From the NCBI GenBank assembly GCA_017454295.1, contig JAFTDF010000036.1, positions 1 to 49,885 on the forward strand: a DNA stretch of 49,885 nt, given 5' to 3'. Origin of the DNA: Bacilli bacterium. Its GTDB lineage: Bacteria > Bacillota_I > Bacilli_A > RFN20 > CAG-826. Positions 29,828-37,389 of the stretch are shown here, one piece after another. The notes beneath the pieces were generated by a model. It saw only the letters and a list, made by a program, of their open reading frames with translations, had not been told where the DNA came from and made no database searches. Position numbers and translations under genes: made by a program. How positions within the stretch are numbered: the stretch's first letter is position 1; each line of letters begins with the position of its first letter.

Positions 29828-30979
29828 ATGAGTCAATTCCAAAACACTTCCTGTCTATTCCGGGTTTATCCCAATCAAACCCAGGAGCAAAAGCTCCTCT
29901 ATTCCTTCCTCGTCAGTAAACGAATATGGAACGATCTCCTTTTGCAAGAGAATCGACGCCGAGAGGAGGGTTCTGCGCCAACCCCTTGCGATTTGTTGCG
30001 CCTTCAAAGCAAACGTTACGTGGTAAAAGAAGATTGCAAAGGCGGCGACCCCATTGCCTATGGGGAAGTGGGGGCGAACCTCTATCGGGCAATTCGTCGT
30101 CACCTCCTCGCGCCCAATCAATGCCGTTACCCCAAACCTAAGGTGATCCACGCGACCACCGGCTCTTATGCCCGGTCCAACGAAGACGGAGCCATCTCCT
30201 ATCAGGATGGAAAACTCTATCTTCCCTATTTGGAGCACCTCAAAATCCGGGGCCTTAGCCCCATTCCCTTTGGGGCGCGAATCATCTCGGTCGTCATTCG
30301 GAAAAAAGCCAGCGGCAAATACGTGGCCTCGATCACGTATTCCGTTCGTGCCAAAGCCCCGGATCCAGCCTCATTCACCCCCGTGGGGAAAACGGTGGGG
30401 CTCGACTATTCCCCCGCCCGTCTGTTCGTGGCTTCCGATCCGGACTTGCAGATCACCAAGGAAGAAGTCGCGGCTAATCGAGCCGATGTGCGCAAGATCA
30501 AGAAAACCGATTCCAAAATCCGTTCATGCACCCACCTTTCCAACAACCAAAAGAAACTGCGCCTCAAAGAAGGCATCCTAATGGAAAAGATCGCCAACCG
30601 GCGAAAAGACCTCATTGAAAAATACTCCACGAAGATCAGCAAGGAATACGATGCCGTTTTCATCGAAGATATCGATGTGAAAGAAATGGCCGATCGCCAC
30701 AGCCCCTATCGCTTCGGAAGGATCATCGCCCAGTCGGCATGGGGCCTGTTTATAAAACGCCTCAGCCAAAAATGCAAACAAAGGCAAAAAAGGCTCATCA
30801 AAGTCAGCCGTTATTATCCTTCCTCGCAGTTATGCTCTTCTTGCGGTTACCGCCAGCAGATCCCTTTGGAAAAGCGAATTTACACTTGCCCTAAATGCGG
30901 GCTGCAGATTAGTCGCGACTTCAATGCTGCGTTAAACATCCAAAAAGAAGGTCTGCGTTTACTGAAAACCGCCCATTAA
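29828..30979 (+). CDS. tnpB: RNA-guided endonuclease TnpB
   Basis: TnpB is the compact ancestor of Cas12; it uses a guide RNA made from the element's right end to cut matching DNA. The 383 residues fit the family. The N-terminal helix-turn-helix (FRVYPNQTQEQKLLYSFL) is present. The split RuvC site is complete: Asp in VGLDYSPARLF (about residue 193), Glu in FIEDIDVKEM (about 279) and Asp in ISRDFNAALNI (about 364). The zinc ribbon has both CxxC pairs (CSSCGY and CPKCGL). All key residues are intact, so the protein looks functional. AGAGG precedes the ATG. Confidence 0.93.
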   Translation: MSQFQNTSCLFRVYPNQTQEQKLLYSFLVSKRIWNDLLLQENRRREEGSAPTPCDLLRLQSKRYVVKEDCKGGDPIAYGEVGANLYRAIRRHLLAPNQCRYPKPKVIHATTGSYARSNEDGAISYQDGKLYLPYLEHLKIRGLSPIPFGARIISVVIRKKASGKYVASITYSVRAKAPDPASFTPVGKTVGLDYSPARLFVASDPDLQITKEEVAANRADVRKIKKTDSKIRSCTHLSNNQKKLRLKEGILMEKIANRRKDLIEKYSTKISKEYDAVFIEDIDVKEMADRHSPYRFGRIIAQSAWGLFIKRLSQKCKQRQKRLIKVSRYYPSSQLCSSCGYRQQIPLEKRIYTCPKCGLQISRDFNAALNIQKEGLRLLKTAH

Positions 30980-31131
30980 AACCCGTCGACTTGGGTCGCA
31001 AGGAGACGTTAAACGCCTTGAGGGTCTCCTCCCGATAGGTAGGGTCCACGCTCGGACCCACGACGCGGTTCGCGTCTCTGGTACCTCGCGTGGTGATGCC
31101 GCTGTCCCGTGGCTAGCCACGTGAGGCCAAA
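30980..31131 (+). ncRNA. Predicted omega RNA (guide scaffold) of TnpB
   Basis: Downstream of the tnpB stop four hairpins follow in tight order: AGGAGAC/GTCTCCT (31001-31007, 31024-31030), GGGTCC/GGACCC (31042-31047, 31054-31059), GACGCG/CGCGTC (31062-31076) and the palindrome CGTGGCTAGCCACG (31108-31121) followed by TGAGG. This matches the known layout of TnpB guide RNAs, which begin within or near the end of tnpB and end in the right-end hairpin. The guide would be the next 16-20 bases (about 31131-31150), which come from the 3' end of znuB. The 5' end is not defined. Confidence 0.6.
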
Positions 31132-31934
31132 GCTTTTTTCTTAAAGAAGGTCACCAAAGCACGCACGATCAGCGTGATCAATAACGCGCTCACGGCGATG
31201 CCGGCCGAAGTCGCGCCAGGCTTCCAATCCAAATAATACGAAGCCACGATTCCCCCCAGCATCGCAAGCAGAGAATAACCAAGGGAAGCAAATAAGGTAA
31301 AGCAATATCCTTTGCGTAGTAACAGAGCGCTTGCGGTGGGCAAAACGACCATCGAGGAGACGACCAAAGCGCCCACGGCCTTCGACCCGATGGCCACGGC
31401 TAGGGCGAATAACAGGGAGTGGAGCAAATCCAGCCATCCCGTCTTGATACCCGAAATATGCGCCTCTTCTTCGCTATAAAGGCAATGGAGCTGGCGTTGG
31501 TAGAAGAAAATGGAGAATAACAACGTCACCAGCAGCAAGCCCGCGACGACATAAACCTCTTCGTAAGAGAGCAGCAAAATCGACCCGAAAAGATAGGAAT
31601 CGAAGTTCGCAGCCTTCGCATAACCCGACAAAATCCCCGATAATGCAATGGCGCCGCTGAGCACGACAACCACGCCAATTTCCGCATGTTTGCCGAATTT
31701 GCGGCGCAAAACCCCGATGATCAAAAAGGAAACCACGCAGGTTATGATGGAAATCAGCATCGGGTTTAATCCACTCACCAAACCGATGGCAATCCCGGCG
31801 AGTGAAGAATGGGCTAAGGCATCGCCACTGGAAGAAAGTTTTTTATAGACCACGGGTCCACCTAGCAACGGAAACACCAGGGCCAACATGGTCGCCACGA
31901 CGAAGGCGATGATCATGAATTCATAATGAAACAT
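31113..31934 (-). CDS. znuB: Zinc ABC transporter permease ZnuB
   Basis: This 273-residue ABC-3 family permease carries zinc (or manganese) across the membrane. It has about eight helices and the family segments ALVFPLLGGPVVYKKLSSSGDALAHSSLAGIA near the N-terminus, and GSKAVGALVVSSMVVLPTASALLL. AAGGGGG lies before the ATG at 31934, which overlaps the end of znuC. The last three residues (SRG) and the stop are encoded by the hairpin of the TnpB element's right end, so the natural 3' end was replaced by the insertion; the lost tail is likely short and non-essential. Confidence 0.87.
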   Translation of the reverse strand: MFHYEFMIIAFVVATMLALVFPLLGGPVVYKKLSSSGDALAHSSLAGIAIGLVSGLNPMLISIITCVVSFLIIGVLRRKFGKHAEIGVVVVLSGAIALSGILSGYAKAANFDSYLFGSILLLSYEEVYVVAGLLLVTLLFSIFFYQRQLHCLYSEEEAHISGIKTGWLDLLHSLLFALAVAIGSKAVGALVVSSMVVLPTASALLLRKGYCFTLFASLGYSLLAMLGGIVASYYLDWKPGATSAGIAVSALLITLIVRALVTFFKKKALASRG

Positions 31935-32580
31935 GGTGATGCCCCCTTTCGAGTTCGTGCTGATAACTTAAGATTTCCCCGTCTTCGATGAAATAGATGG
32001 CATCGGCCTCTTCCAAATCGTGAGGATGGTGGGACACGAATAGAATTGTCTTTCCTTCTTGATGCAATTCATTAATCAAATGGACTAAACGGTGGTGGTT
32101 TTCTTCATCGAGCCCCGCATCGGGTTCGTCGAAAATGACTAAAGTGGGGTCGGCGACGATGGTTTTGGCAAGCCGTGCCCGCTGCAATTGACCTCCGGAT
32201 AGTTCGCGGAGCAATTTCTTGCGCAGGGGATATAGATCGAAACGGTGAAGAGCCGCTTCGACTTTCTTTTTATCATCCCGGTTTAGAAACCATTTCTTTC
32301 GCCCGATAAGCCCCATACCGACGAGTTCTTCGACGGTGCATTGGAAATCATGGTCGTCGCGACCCGAAGTCTGCGATAGATAGGCGATGACTTGGTCGGT
32401 CACCGTCAGGGTTCCGCTTTGTGGCTTTAAAATCCCCAAAGCCAATTTCAAAAAGGTGGATTTGCCACCCCCGTTGGGCCCGAGGATTCCGACGAATTGG
32501 CCATCCTCCAAACGGAAGGAAATGTCTTTTAGCAAGGCACGGTCGGCATAGGAAAAACTGACGTGGGAAAATTCGATCAC
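31921..32580 (-). CDS. znuC: Zinc ABC transporter ATP-binding protein ZnuC
   Basis: This 219-residue ATPase powers the zinc importer. Walker A is GPNGGGKST (about residue 35), the signature LSGGQLQRARLAK, Walker B LVIFDEPDAGLD, and the switch His in VSHHPHDL. The start is GTG with CAGGAGG upstream, overlapping the znuA stop (GTGA). It overlaps znuB by 14 nt. The C-terminus ends in a His-rich stretch (YQHELERGHHHVSL), which may bind metal. Confidence 0.9.
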   Translation of the reverse strand: MIEFSHVSFSYADRALLKDISFRLEDGQFVGILGPNGGGKSTFLKLALGILKPQSGTLTVTDQVIAYLSQTSGRDDHDFQCTVEELVGMGLIGRKKWFLNRDDKKKVEAALHRFDLYPLRKKLLRELSGGQLQRARLAKTIVADPTLVIFDEPDAGLDEENHHRLVHLINELHQEGKTILFVSHHPHDLEEADAIYFIEDGEILSYQHELERGHHHVSL

Positions 32581-33449
32581 GGTTTTGCCTCCTGGATTTT
32601 ATGAAGGTTTTCTAAATAGACGCTGAAGTAAGTGGCACCCTCGGCGATTTCGTCTTCTTCTAATCCTTCTAAGGGATTGAGCGATTCGGCTTTCGCGCCG
32701 CTGGCCTTGGCGATGGCTTGGGCGACGGCGGGGCTAGCGAGCTCCTCGAAAAAGACGGTGTCGATTCCATAGGAAGCAATGGCGTCCAACACTTGCGTCA
32801 TCGTTTGCTGGGTCGGTTCTTGATCGGGCGAGAGTCCATTGATATAGATTTGTTTGAGATGGAATTCATTACATAGATAACCATAGGCGGCATGGGAGAC
32901 GGCAATCGGTTTTCCCGCAATGGAGGCGGCGATTTCCTTGGCGCTTGCTTCCATTTCCGTCAAATCCGCGCAAAAAGAAGCGAAATTTGCACGGAATTCT
33001 CCGGCATACGAAGGCAAGGCCTGAACCATGGAGGATAAAACTTTTTCGCCCATTTGGCGGTATAAGGCCGTATCCAGCCAGATGTGAGGATCGACGGCAC
33101 CGTCCACGCTTTGAGTGGGCAGGCCTTCGCTTAATATGATGGTTTTCTTTTGATAGGAAGGGAGCAAGGAATCCGTCCACGCTTCCATGCCAAGCCCGTT
33201 GACGAAGCAAAGGGAAGCATCGGCGATCTTCCGCACGGCGCTGGGAACGAGTTCGAAATCATGCGGTTCGGTACCGGCGGGGGTGAGGTTTTCGACGTCG
33301 ATCGCGTCGCCTCCAATGGCATCCGCCAGAAACCAAACCGGATAAAAAGAAGCGACCACCAAAGGCCGATCCAGCTGCGTTGGGCCACAAGAACATAGCC
33401 CAAGAAGCGGTAAGAGGAACCTGATTTTGCGCAATGACTTGATTCTCAT
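32577..33449 (-). CDS. znuA: Zinc-binding lipoprotein ZnuA
   Basis: This 290-residue cluster A-I substrate-binding protein begins with a lipoprotein signal ending LGLCSC. The three metal-binding histidines are seen in EPHDFEL, DPHIWLD and SHAAYGYL, with an acidic fourth ligand probable near the C-terminus (PLEGLEEDE). The His-rich loop of Gram-negative ZnuA is absent. First gene of the znuACB operon, divergent from the Fur-family gene. The shared 7-1-7 box at 33463-33477 should shut the operon off when zinc is plentiful. Zinc is preferred over manganese because of the regulator, but this is inference. Confidence 0.87.
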   Translation of the reverse strand: MRIKSLRKIRFLLPLLGLCSCGPTQLDRPLVVASFYPVWFLADAIGGDAIDVENLTPAGTEPHDFELVPSAVRKIADASLCFVNGLGMEAWTDSLLPSYQKKTIILSEGLPTQSVDGAVDPHIWLDTALYRQMGEKVLSSMVQALPSYAGEFRANFASFCADLTEMEASAKEIAASIAGKPIAVSHAAYGYLCNEFHLKQIYINGLSPDQEPTQQTMTQVLDAIASYGIDTVFFEELASPAVAQAIAKASGAKAESLNPLEGLEEDEIAEGATYFSVYLENLHKIQEAKP

Positions 33450-33461
33450 TTATCCTTCTAA

Positions 33462-33491
33462 TTGCAAATGATTTGCATTTGCGACTATAAT
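33462..33491 (+). promoter_or_regulatory. Promoter of the Fur-family gene
   Basis: TTGCAA (33462-33467) and TATAAT (33486-33491), 18-bp spacer. The -35 lies inside the 7-1-7 box. Confidence 0.7.
33463..33477. promoter_or_regulatory. 7-1-7 Fur-family (Zur) operator
   Basis: TGCAAAT-G-ATTTGCA is a perfect 7-1-7 palindrome, the pattern bound by Fur/Zur/PerR dimers. It sits between znuA and the regulator and covers the regulator's -35, so it probably controls both. Confidence 0.8.
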
Positions 33492-33522
33492 ATAGCATCG
33501 TCCCTTAGGGAGGGCAAAGGAA

Positions 33523-33936
33523 ATGAACGAAAAAATATTGCTGAAAGATCATGGTCTCAAAGCCACGCCATCGCGTCTATCCATCTTGCATTACCTTTCC
33601 ACCCTCGATGCCCCCATCACCGCTGAGGAACTCTTCCGCCGCTTACAAAGCCAAGGGCTTGATCTCTCCACGCTTTATCGAAACCTCAATACCTTCGTCG
33701 AAGCCGGACTTGCCAAACGGGAAGTGGGGCATCACAAAGAAAATATCTATTCCCTCATCCAAGAAGAGGAGCGCCATTTTTTGGTGTGCTTACGCTGCCA
33801 AAAGAAGATTCGGTTAGAAGGCTGCCCTTATCACGAAGTCAACGAAGCCATCGAATCCCAAACCGGTTTCCGTGTCCTCGATCACAATACGGAAATCTAC
33901 GGAATCTGCCCAAATTGTCAACGTCAAGAACCTTGA
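33523..33936 (+). CDS. zur: Fur-family regulator, probably Zur
   Basis: This 137-residue metal-dependent repressor has an N-terminal winged helix (GLKATPSRLSILHYL, then STLYRNLNTFVEAGL) and a dimerisation domain with the structural zinc cysteines (CLRC and CPNC). His residues in EVGHHKENIYSL and EERHFLVC form metal sites. AAAGG precedes the ATG. Its position opposite znuACB and the shared operator make Zur the best call; Fur or PerR cannot be excluded by sequence alone. Confidence 0.86.
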   Translation: MNEKILLKDHGLKATPSRLSILHYLSTLDAPITAEELFRRLQSQGLDLSTLYRNLNTFVEAGLAKREVGHHKENIYSLIQEEERHFLVCLRCQKKIRLEGCPYHEVNEAIESQTGFRVLDHNTEIYGICPNCQRQEP

Positions 33937-34028: not shown

Positions 34029-34307
34029 ATGGCAACAAGAAAACTCATCATCGAACGGCGGAAAGGCCAATTCGGCCGTTTTCCTGCCTGCGCGATCCTC
34101 TCCGACGAAAAACGAATCGGGGAGATGGCGCAGGACCAAATGAAAGGCGAATTCGCCATCAGCAAAGGCGAACACGCCATCCAAGCCCAAATCGAAGGAC
34201 CCGATGGCCGGCTCTATCGCTCGAATTCCTATTTTTCCCTCGGTGGGAAGGACGTTGTCCTTTATTTGACCATCGATGGCAGCAAACTCGTTCTCGCCTA
34301 TCGTTAA
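34029..34307 (+). CDS. Hypothetical 92-residue protein
   Basis: I do not recognise the family. The protein is soluble, with a pattern of alternating strands (RKLIIERRKGQFGRFPACAIL, then GKDVVLYLTIDGSKLVLAYR) that suggests a small beta-sandwich. The ATG at 34029 follows TAGGAGG; the upstream in-frame ATG at 34005 lies in the inverted-repeat region. It ends 10 bp before the oxidoreductase gene, so both share a promoter. A role with the oxidoreductase is inferred only from that. Confidence 0.55.
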   Translation: MATRKLIIERRKGQFGRFPACAILSDEKRIGEMAQDQMKGEFAISKGEHAIQAQIEGPDGRLYRSNSYFSLGGKDVVLYLTIDGSKLVLAYR

Positions 34308-34317
34308 GGAGACCATT

Positions 34318-37044
34318 ATGAAAGAACAAGAACCCATTCTCTACGAAGGAAAACCCGTTGCCGACGGCGATAAGCCCCTTCGCCCCAAAATCGTCAAAGT
34401 CGCCAAAATGATCGGCGGTCCCTCGGGGATGATGAACAAAATCGATGCCAATGCCCCGGAATACTATTCCCTTGCCGGCTCGGTCTCCGATGAGGAATGC
34501 GATTTCATCCTCTCCCTTGGACTTCGCAAAATCCGGACCGATGAATATGTGGCCAAGAAACTTGGCTGGGACATCGACCGCGTCCACAAAGTCGGCGATC
34601 ACCTTGGCTATCTTGGCACGCTTCGCGTCGACTATTTCGAAGAAGACGGGCATTACGAATACTTCTGCCCCATTTTCGCCCCTGGCCTTTTGGAAATCAT
34701 GGTCGTTTCGCCCAACGCCAAAGACCATCCCGAAATCCGTCGCGCCTTCAACCAATACACCCATGACCGCCTCCAAAACATGGGTCCGATGATTCCCGAA
34801 GGTTATGGCCTCATGCGCGTCATCCCGATTGAACGCGCCCTCCCCAAAGACGAGAAACCCGATCCCCGCGATACCCTTTCCTATTATTTGGATAAATACG
34901 ACTACTATTCCGTCGGTCAATGCTCTTGCCGCGTTTCCCGTACGACCATGGGCGAAGGCTGCGGCCATCTTGCCGATGATCGTTGCATCAAACTCGGCAA
35001 AGCCGCCAAATACTTCGTCCGCACCGGCAAAGACCGCGAAATCAGCCGCAAAGAGCTCGAGACCATCATGCACAATTGCGAAGAAGAAGGTCTCATGCAC
35101 TGCATCCCCAACATCGAATCCATCCGCGATGGCAATACCACGGCTATTTGCGACTGCTGTGATTGCGCTTGCTTCGGTTTGCGTCCGGTCGAAGAATTCA
35201 AGACCAATGACGCCGTTGCCTCCAACTATCGTTGCGTCGTCGAAGCCGCCAACTGCGTTGCCTGTGGCAAATGCGTCGAATACTGCCCGACCAACGCCAT
35301 CAAACTCGGCGTCAAACTCCATCAAAAATGCGAGCCGAAAATCGCCTTCTCCAAATCCGTTGGGGATCATGGCGCCGCTAGTGTTCGCAACCCCGACTAT
35401 CGTTTCACCCGCACCGACGTCATCCCCGAAACCGGGACTGCACCTTGCAAATCCTGGTGCCCGGCCCATATCGGGATCCAAGGCTATATCAAGATGGCCA
35501 GCGAAGGCCGTTATAAAGAAGCCCTCGCCCTCATCAAGCACGAGAACCCCTTCCCCGCCGTCTGCGGCCGTATTTGCAACCATCCTTGCGAACTCCATTG
35601 CACCCGTGGTTCCGTTGATGAGGCCATCGCCATCGACGACATCAAGAAATTCATCGCCGAGCGCGAACTTTCTCCTGAAGGACGCTTCCTCCCCTGGAAA
35701 CGCCACGATTATTCCGATAAGAAGATTGCCATCATCGGCGGCGGCCCGGCTGGTTTAAGCTGCGCTTATTACCTCCTCCAAGATGGCTATGACGTCACCG
35801 TCTTCGAAAAAGAAAAGAAACTCGGCGGTATGCTGACCCTTGGCATCCCCGCCTTCCGTCTGGAAAAGAACGTCGTCGAAGCCGAAATCGACATCATCCG
35901 GGAAATGGGTTGCCATTTCAAAACCGGCGTCGAAGTGGGCAAAGACGTCACCATCCCCGAGCTCCGTAAGCAGGGTTTCAATGGCTTCTTCATCGCCATC
36001 GGCGCCCAAGCCTCCCGTCACCTTGGCTTAGAAGGCGAAGACCATCCCGATATCATGGGTGGGATCGATTTCTTACGCGAAGTCAACCTCGGCAAAGGCA
36101 AGAAGTTCAAAGGCGAAGTCATCGTCGTCGGTGGTGGTAACGTCGCCATGGACGTCGCCCGTACGGCCCTGCGCCAAGGCGCGACCAAAGTCGATCTCTA
36201 TTGCCTCGAATCCCGTGAGGAAATGCCTTCCGCCAAAGAAGAAATCGCCGAAGCCGAAGCCGAAGGCATCGTCATCCACAATTCCTATGGTCCGAAAGCC
36301 ATCCTTCGCGACGGCAAGAAACTCGAAGGCATGTCCTTCCGGAAGTGTCTCTCCGTCCGCGACGCCGAAGGCCGTTTCAACCCCACGTTTGACGAAACCG
36401 AAATCATCGAAGCCAAAGCCGGAGATATCCTCTTGGCGATCGGCCAGTCCTTCGATTACGGTAAACTCCTCGAAGGCACCCAGGTCGAACTCACCCGTGG
36501 CAACACCGTCCTTGCCGATCCCTTCACCTTACAAACCACCGATCCCGATATCTTCGCCGGCGGCGATTGCCATCGTGGCGCCCGCTTCGCCATCGAAGCC
36601 ATTGCCGAAGGCAAAGCCGCGGCCATCTCCTTGCATCGCTATGTCCAGCCCGGACAACTTCTCGATGCCGGACGCAACCATCGCGATTTCTTCGGCCTCG
36701 ATGTCAATAACATGGAACTCGATGGCTTTGATAAAGCCCCGCGTCAAATCCCGCAATCCCGCCCCATCGACACCAAATCCTTTGCCGATAATCGCGGGAT
36801 CTTTACCGAAGACCAAATCAAGAAAGAAGCCGCCCGTTGCCTTAGCTGCGGGAAAGCGGTGGTCGATCCCAACCTTTGCGTTGGCTGCGGTCAGTGCGTC
36901 ATCAAATGCCAATTCGATGCCGCTCACCTCGTCAAGAAGACCAAGATCTACGCCAGCAGCTTCGACTCCTTGCTCCCCAAGGCCATTGGCCACACCATCA
37001 AGCGCGGCATCAAGATCGCCGCGACCGCGTTGAAGAGGGATTAA
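34318..37044 (+). CDS. Large 4Fe-4S/FAD oxidoreductase related to GltD
   Basis: This is a 908-residue multidomain redox protein. Residues 1-190 form a region I cannot name. Residues about 200-335 are cysteine-rich (QCSCRVSRTTMGEGCGH, CDCCDCAC) and end in a ferredoxin motif (CVACGKCVEYCP). Residues 370-460 form the GltD-type N-terminal iron-sulfur domain (CKSWCPAHI, CGRICNHPCELHCTRG). An FAD fold (IIGGGPAGLS, about residue 474) and an NAD(P) fold (VGGGNVAMD, about 604) follow. The end carries a second ferredoxin motif (CVGCGQCVIKC, about 856). It likely moves electrons between NAD(P)H and a carrier or partner, perhaps by bifurcation. The partner is not in view. The next gene is hypA-like, 3 bp away. 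Confidence 0.8.
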   Translation: MKEQEPILYEGKPVADGDKPLRPKIVKVAKMIGGPSGMMNKIDANAPEYYSLAGSVSDEECDFILSLGLRKIRTDEYVAKKLGWDIDRVHKVGDHLGYLGTLRVDYFEEDGHYEYFCPIFAPGLLEIMVVSPNAKDHPEIRRAFNQYTHDRLQNMGPMIPEGYGLMRVIPIERALPKDEKPDPRDTLSYYLDKYDYYSVGQCSCRVSRTTMGEGCGHLADDRCIKLGKAAKYFVRTGKDREISRKELETIMHNCEEEGLMHCIPNIESIRDGNTTAICDCCDCACFGLRPVEEFKTNDAVASNYRCVVEAANCVACGKCVEYCPTNAIKLGVKLHQKCEPKIAFSKSVGDHGAASVRNPDYRFTRTDVIPETGTAPCKSWCPAHIGIQGYIKMASEGRYKEALALIKHENPFPAVCGRICNHPCELHCTRGSVDEAIAIDDIKKFIAERELSPEGRFLPWKRHDYSDKKIAIIGGGPAGLSCAYYLLQDGYDVTVFEKEKKLGGMLTLGIPAFRLEKNVVEAEIDIIREMGCHFKTGVEVGKDVTIPELRKQGFNGFFIAIGAQASRHLGLEGEDHPDIMGGIDFLREVNLGKGKKFKGEVIVVGGGNVAMDVARTALRQGATKVDLYCLESREEMPSAKEEIAEAEAEGIVIHNSYGPKAILRDGKKLEGMSFRKCLSVRDAEGRFNPTFDETEIIEAKAGDILLAIGQSFDYGKLLEGTQVELTRGNTVLADPFTLQTTDPDIFAGGDCHRGARFAIEAIAEGKAAAISLHRYVQPGQLLDAGRNHRDFFGLDVNNMELDGFDKAPRQIPQSRPIDTKSFADNRGIFTEDQIKKEAARCLSCGKAVVDPNLCVGCGQCVIKCQFDAAHLVKKTKIYASSFDSLLPKAIGHTIKRGIKIAATALKRD

Positions 37045-37047
37045 GCC

Positions 37048-37389
37048 ATGCATGAGCTTGGCTATGCCACCGAACTCGTGGCCACCCTCGAGGAGTTGAT
37101 GGACCAAGAACACCTCAGCGTCATCCGTTCCGTCACGTTGCGCGTTGGGGAAGCCACCGGCGTCATCCCCCGGTATCTTTACGAATGCTGGCCTGCCGCC
37201 ATCGAAGATAGCCGTATCCCCGATTGCGAGCTAAAAATCGACTATACCCGCGCCGTCGGACGGTGTCGGGATTGCGAAGAGGAATATATCGCCTCCGCCA
37301 CCCATGGGGTCTGCCCCAAATGCGGCTCGAAGGAATACGATCTCCTCAACGGTTACGAATTCGAAGTCGTGGAAATCCACGGCAAATAA
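37048..37389 (+). CDS. hypA: HypA-family nickel metallochaperone
   Basis: HypA delivers nickel to [NiFe] hydrogenase (or urease) during assembly. The 113-residue length is normal. The nickel site (MHE at the N-terminus, His2) is present, and so is the zinc loop with two CxxC pairs (CRDCEEEYIASATHGVCPKC). It follows the oxidoreductase gene by 3 bp. No hydrogenase structural genes and no hypB-F occur in this window, so its client is unclear. Confidence 0.85.
   Translation: MHELGYATELVATLEELMDQEHLSVIRSVTLRVGEATGVIPRYLYECWPAAIEDSRIPDCELKIDYTRAVGRCRDCEEEYIASATHGVCPKCGSKEYDLLNGYEFEVVEIHGK

Follow-up and report, generated by a model that had tools for sequence, protein, structure and literature searches.

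The closest described system is a flavoprotein family that was named IsrA, for putative isoprene reductase (Kronen et al., 2023; PMC10134865). In Acetobacterium wieringae, the isr operon is strongly upregulated during isoprene reduction, and hypA and hypB were noted in its neighborhood without a hydrogenase (PMC10134865). The same study found six cysteines of IsrA to be close in space and proposed nickel at this site of the N-terminal domain (N-domain), which was likened to the A cluster of acetyl-CoA synthase (PMC10134865). Among 988 homologues, HypA was encoded near 73% and HypB near 56% (within five genes), while DUF5692 was found near 40% (PMC10134865). Since A. wieringae also possesses CODH/ACS and lactate racemases (PMC10134865), the nickel argument of 2023 was confounded in that organism, which is not the case in the genomes studied here. 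We found no later biochemical study of IsrA in the open-access literature.

Relationship of the locus to IsrA

We analyzed a 49,885-nt stretch of DNA from a Bacilli bacterium (the window), which carries a flavoprotein gene followed by hypA. Like IsrA of A. wieringae ISORED-2 (VUZ27132.1) and its "clade 9" homologues, the window protein is ~900 aa long, has an unannotated N-terminal region (~270-300 aa) that contains six cysteines, including two CxC motifs, and presents its domains in the same order, i.e., N-domain, Fer4, DPYD domain II, FAD/NAD(P) core and C-terminal Fer4. As in that group, hypA is adjacent and neither hypD nor a [NiFe] hydrogenase is present. Its flavoprotein is 48% identical over 897 aa to a homologue from a metagenome-assembled genome (MAG) of A. 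woodii. The loci differ in that hypB is encoded apart from the window cassette, which starts with a 92-aa ORF ahead of the flavoprotein and has neither a second hypA nor a ferredoxin gene. In the tree, the window protein also groups apart, in a long-stemmed clade of Bacilli, and isoprene reduction is the putative role of the A. wieringae protein. Although a hypB within five genes is frequent in clade 9, it is not a defining feature; none lies that close at the window, where hypB co-occurs genome-wide instead. Judged by sequence and gene order, the window system is thus a member of the published IsrA family and not a new system. An earlier note on this DNA had suggested a new nickel-linked electron-transfer system; the nickel link has held up, since HypA, HypB and N-domain occur together in the absence of HypD or hydrogenase, whereas the novelty has not, because IsrA and its hypA/hypB neighborhood were published in 2023 (PMC10134865).

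To place the family more widely, 84,980 species in the genome_contigs collection were scanned, giving 80 loci in Clostridia, Bacilli, Spirochaetes, Chloroflexi, Desulfobacterales and Gammaproteobacteria. Members from Clostridia and other phyla are usually encoded in an operon of the order hypB - flavoprotein - hypA, which a gene for a DUF5692 membrane protein frequently accompanies. Six-frame searches of these loci recovered hypA in 68 and hypB in 49, several of the remainder being short contigs; DUF5692 accompanied 23 of them and a GntR regulator 22.

Organization of the cassette and the flavoprotein

The cassette consists of three closely spaced ORFs on the + strand (Table 1). ORF coordinates and Pfam matches bear out the earlier description of a 908-aa redox protein with hypA directly behind it, although the start given there for the pair (34029) in fact opens the separate 92-aa ORF. 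Ribosome-binding sites are good for both this ORF and the flavoprotein, for which an alternative in-frame ATG at 34276 would yield 922 aa. Twelve related loci (L056, L058, L060, L062-L069, L071) have a homologue of the 92-aa ORF immediately 5' of the flavoprotein; the ORF precedes every "type A" flavoprotein of the clade, and none was seen elsewhere in the IsrA family. The arrangement of flavoprotein and hypA and the domain content are not due to chance. Directly 5' of the cassette, at 31113-33936, are a zinc importer of the ZnuABC type (- strand) and a regulator of the Fur family (+ strand), an arrangement that related loci do not share. Beyond these, at 29828-30979, is a TnpB/OrfB_IS605-like gene with a Cas12f1-like TNB domain.

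Table 1. Features of the cassette (positions in the window).
Feature	Position	Strand	Remarks
92-aa ORF	34029..34307	+	First in cassette; GGAGG upstream; no Pfam match
IsrA-family flavoprotein, 908 aa	34318..37044	+	ATG at 34318; AAGGAG upstream
Winged-helix-like part of N-terminal domain, aa 20-146	34375..34755	+	Model fold matches with Z only up to 7.5, so may mean just a common arrangement
Six-cysteine region, aa 202-285 (C202, C204, C223, C278, C280, C285)	34921..35172	+	Proposed nickel/Fe-S site; equivalent to cluster V of IsrA
[4Fe-4S] ferredoxin motif, aa 309-330	35242..35307	+	Pfam Fer4 (aa 309-329); C313/316/319/323 invariant
Fer4_20 / DPYD domain II, aa 374-450	35437..35667	+	PF14691
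FAD/NAD(P)-binding GltD-like core, aa 469-776	35722..36645	+	PF07992 Pyr_redox_2, aa 469-765
C-terminal ferredoxin motif, aa 841-871	36838..36930	+	Pfam Fer4_6 (aa 847-867); Cys invariant
hypA, 113 aa	37048..37389	+	PF01155, 93 bits (cut-off 28.9); starts 3 bp past flavoprotein TAA

The two ferredoxin motifs, the GltD-like core and the unnamed N-terminal region recognized earlier were all borne out by Pfam, with no family matching the first ~305 residues and the first match beginning at aa 309. An AlphaFold2 model of the full-length protein was confident (pLDDT 89.6, pTM 0.90), and its core matched the electron-bifurcating transhydrogenases NfnABC and StnABC (PDB 9bov, 9n5u, 8oh5), with which it has the GltD-like FAD/NAD(P) core and DPYD domain II in common at 33-38% identity over ~470-520 columns. 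Unlike these enzymes, the window protein has an N-terminal six-cysteine domain, for which no counterpart was found by sequence, and is linked to HypA. It also scored below the NCBIfam GltD equivalog cut-offs (TIGR01316, 266.6 vs. 471.75 bits; TIGR01318, 260.4 vs. 482.95 bits). A sequence search of the PDB with the N-domain returned no homologue beyond its ferredoxin motif, and a separate model of the domain (pLDDT 78) gave only winged-helix pieces and no Foldseek match at E ≤ 0.001, an absence that proves nothing.

Window HypA begins with MHE and has CxxC motifs at aa 73-76 and 89-92; every start-intact HypA of the genome set likewise has His-Glu after the start codon and two CxxC motifs, and HypB keeps its CH motif throughout. 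These proteins thus belong to the same chaperone families, with nickel and zinc motifs, as the HypA/HypB pair that loads [NiFe] hydrogenases and ureases. They differ in that their genome has no HypD, [NiFe] hydrogenase or urease, and in that window HypA remains under the cut-off of the hydrogenase equivalog TIGR00100 (66.5 vs. 88.1 bits).

Nickel enzymes and HypB in related genomes

The earlier note had allowed that the hydrogenase served by HypA might lie elsewhere in the genome. The window's own assembly (1.63 Mb in 47 contigs, 89.8% complete) contains a single hypB, on contig C14 and apart from the window cassette, and no HypD or [NiFe] large subunit was found in it. Across 96 related genomes, of which 62 have a completeness of 90% or more and little contamination, HypD, from which we judged the HypCDEF assembly, was never found, and the large subunit (PF00374) was represented by one fragment below the cut-off and none above it. 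A [NiFe] hydrogenase is therefore excluded as far as the assembly permits. CODH/ACS and CODH/HCP were likewise absent from all 96 genomes, LarA occurred in one, which lacks HypB, and urease was confined to a single one of the 35 HypB-positive genomes, not the window's own. [FeFe] hydrogenase is present in 83 of the 96, own genome included, indicating hydrogen metabolism of another kind in these fermenters.

To examine co-occurrence, an N-domain was scored as present at >90 bits, with fragments at contig ends counted. N-domain and HypB (above cut-off) occurred in an identical set of 35 of the 96 genomes (Fisher P = 5e-27, kinship ignored), and HypA in 34 of these; the exception, G024, is 84% complete. 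Positives span 12 genera, within four of which presence is mixed, and G085 shows the two decaying jointly, as its HypA is interrupted by an in-frame TGA and an N-domain remnant lies on the same contig. Almost every hypA locus of the relatives includes an adjoining flavoprotein gene. In a second, class-wide sample of 120 genomes, which partly overlaps the first, full-length homologues were accompanied by HypB in 12 of 12 cases. The thirteenth HypB of that sample (G159), the only one unaccompanied by a full-length homologue, is explained by its place in a real hydrogenase cluster, amid hypF-, hypD-, hypE-like and hydrogenase-subunit-like genes (named from sequence). HypA, HypB and the N-domain are hence present or absent together across relatives, and the pair is tightly linked rather than scattered among them, with no hydrogenase set elsewhere.

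The own genome holds a second, diverged flavoprotein-hypA pair on C14. With ~43% identity between them and widely separated positions in the tree, the two flavoproteins probably reached this genome by independent acquisitions. The C14 pair is preceded by a TetR gene and an ABC importer of the FecCD type, a class that includes NiuBDE. NiuBDE provides a precedent for nickel import (PMC5140060, PMC7840056). Neighbors of HypB were also considered as nickel clients and proved uninformative, consisting within the genus only of a conserved block of unrelated genes.

The six-cysteine N-domain

Both CxC motifs (C202-x-C204 and C278-x-C280), C223 and C285 are invariant in our alignments. In two genomes (G046 and G050), the sole hypB-hypA adjoins a stand-alone N-domain ferredoxin (362-368 aa) that has no flavin core (L049:9707-10795, L055:10356-11462), which points to the N-domain as the common denominator. 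These ferredoxins resemble the isr-operon ferredoxin VUZ27135.1, to which they are likened by description only. They lack H261, so this histidine cannot be an indispensable nickel ligand in every case. More distant N-domain polyferredoxins of 430 aa occur in Bacilli (L196-L200), where the six cysteines are kept and four of the five genomes have no HypB; in those four, Gln replaces H261 and the polyferredoxins are the only N-domain proteins. The N-domain is consequently ruled out as a strict marker of nickel.

Interpretation

The co-occurrence, the absence of a hydrogenase and the invariant cysteines together support a nickel link for the pair, which comparative genomics renders well supported, with nickel itself predicted to occupy the site. 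We lean toward the view that the pair consists of a reductase of the IsrA family and a nickel chaperone dedicated to it; the reductase would hold nickel in the six-cysteine site of the N-domain and reduce carbon-carbon double bonds. FAD of the GltD-like core would take electrons from NAD(P)H, and these would continue via Fer4_20 and the ferredoxin-type [4Fe-4S] clusters to the six-cysteine site, into which HypB (from C14) and HypA would load nickel. There, an unactivated or conjugated C=C could be reduced as an electron sink. Counting against a nickel reductase are the HypB-less 430-aa relatives, the missing H261 in the hypBA-adjacent ferredoxins, the lack of a substrate-specific neighbor at the window locus and the long stem of the window clade.

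The distant proteins that have the same six cysteines and no HypB would also fit an arrangement in which HypA and HypB assist the flavoprotein but the site carries an Fe-S cluster, whether ordinary or unusual, and the chaperones provide another metal or a structural service. We consider this unlikely, as the His-Glu nickel motif of HypA and the CH motif of HypB are kept throughout and a metal-transporter-type importer stands beside the second pair. HypA and HypB might instead serve another, unrecognized nickel enzyme, their adjacency to the flavoprotein being incidental. The nickel search covered only a few enzyme families, the genomes are incomplete and hypB is apart from the pair in the genus, all of which would allow for such a client; nevertheless, the exact co-occurrence of HypB with the N-domain and the adjacency of the genes across many phyla make it quite unlikely.

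A function mainly as electron-transfer partner of [FeFe] hydrogenases, like that of the GltD-like subunits of bifurcating complexes, would agree with a core closest to NfnABC and StnABC and with the prevalence of these hydrogenases in the related genomes and the window's own. It is nonetheless very improbable, given that [FeFe] hydrogenases are common with or without the pair, are missing in several genomes that have it (G015, G016, G036) and are not known to use HypA or HypB. Barely credible is a complete [NiFe] hydrogenase hidden in the unassembled portion of the genome; incompleteness and fragmentation leave some room for one, but the lack of HypD in all 96 relatives and a large subunit reduced to a single sub-cut-off fragment speak strongly against it.

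Returning to the nickel reductase, the IsrA family as a whole probably comprises nickel-dependent reducers of carbon-carbon double bonds. Known classes of nickel enzymes are few, and the family, if nickel-dependent, would add one, with an N-terminal six-cysteine site that has no solved relative by sequence search. To the work of 2023, our analysis adds co-occurrence in small genomes that lack CODH, hydrogenase and (where HypB is present) LarA, the clients that had left the proposal open. It also adds linoleate-isomerase-like neighbors which, with the oleate-hydratase ones, make a fatty-acid substrate directly testable.

Possible substrates

Genes of the family of PDB 2b9w were found within six genes of seven IsrA-like genes (L133, L143, L149, L158, L160, L168, L180). 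This structure is titled a putative aminooxidase and is the linoleate isomerase PAI (polyenoic fatty acid isomerase) of Propionibacterium acnes. In L180 (6424-10670), the match (E 5e-107) lies 8 bp upstream of the IsrA-like gene, at a locus in whose 17 kb a six-frame search found no hypA; in Alkaliphilus transvaalensis (L149:5655-12090), the gene (E 3e-62) is upstream of hypB, and L160 gave a weaker match (E 2e-21). In a MAG labelled A. woodii, an oleate hydratase is directly ahead of hypB. That neighbor was also noted in the 2023 study, which mentions neither linoleate nor isomerases (PMC10134865). PAI is a pathway neighbor at some family loci and not a relative of the flavoprotein, and the window locus has no PAI-like, oleate-hydratase or other substrate-specific neighbor.

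Such neighbors suggest that some members of the IsrA family act on conjugated fatty acids. Isoprene has been proposed for IsrA of A. wieringae, and conjugated fatty acids are plausible for those members beside linoleate-isomerase-like genes. More tentatively, the family may form a widespread nickel enzyme class that hydrogenates conjugated C=C bonds at a novel site of six cysteines, either a nickel or a Ni-Fe-S site, with some members acting as conjugated linoleic acid (CLA) reductase in the biohydrogenation carried out by gut and rumen anaerobes; we would not yet favor this broader proposal. In 2007, the purification of a CLA reductase from Butyrivibrio fibrisolvens and the sequence of its gene were reported (Fukuda et al., as cited in PMC4478896), so that the question becomes whether the IsrA family adds a different reductase. 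As a separate observation, three genomes (L048, L060, L064) have Rnf-type genes (RnfG, RnfE) and one resembling ApbE at no more than ~10 kb from the flavoprotein, which may be chance.
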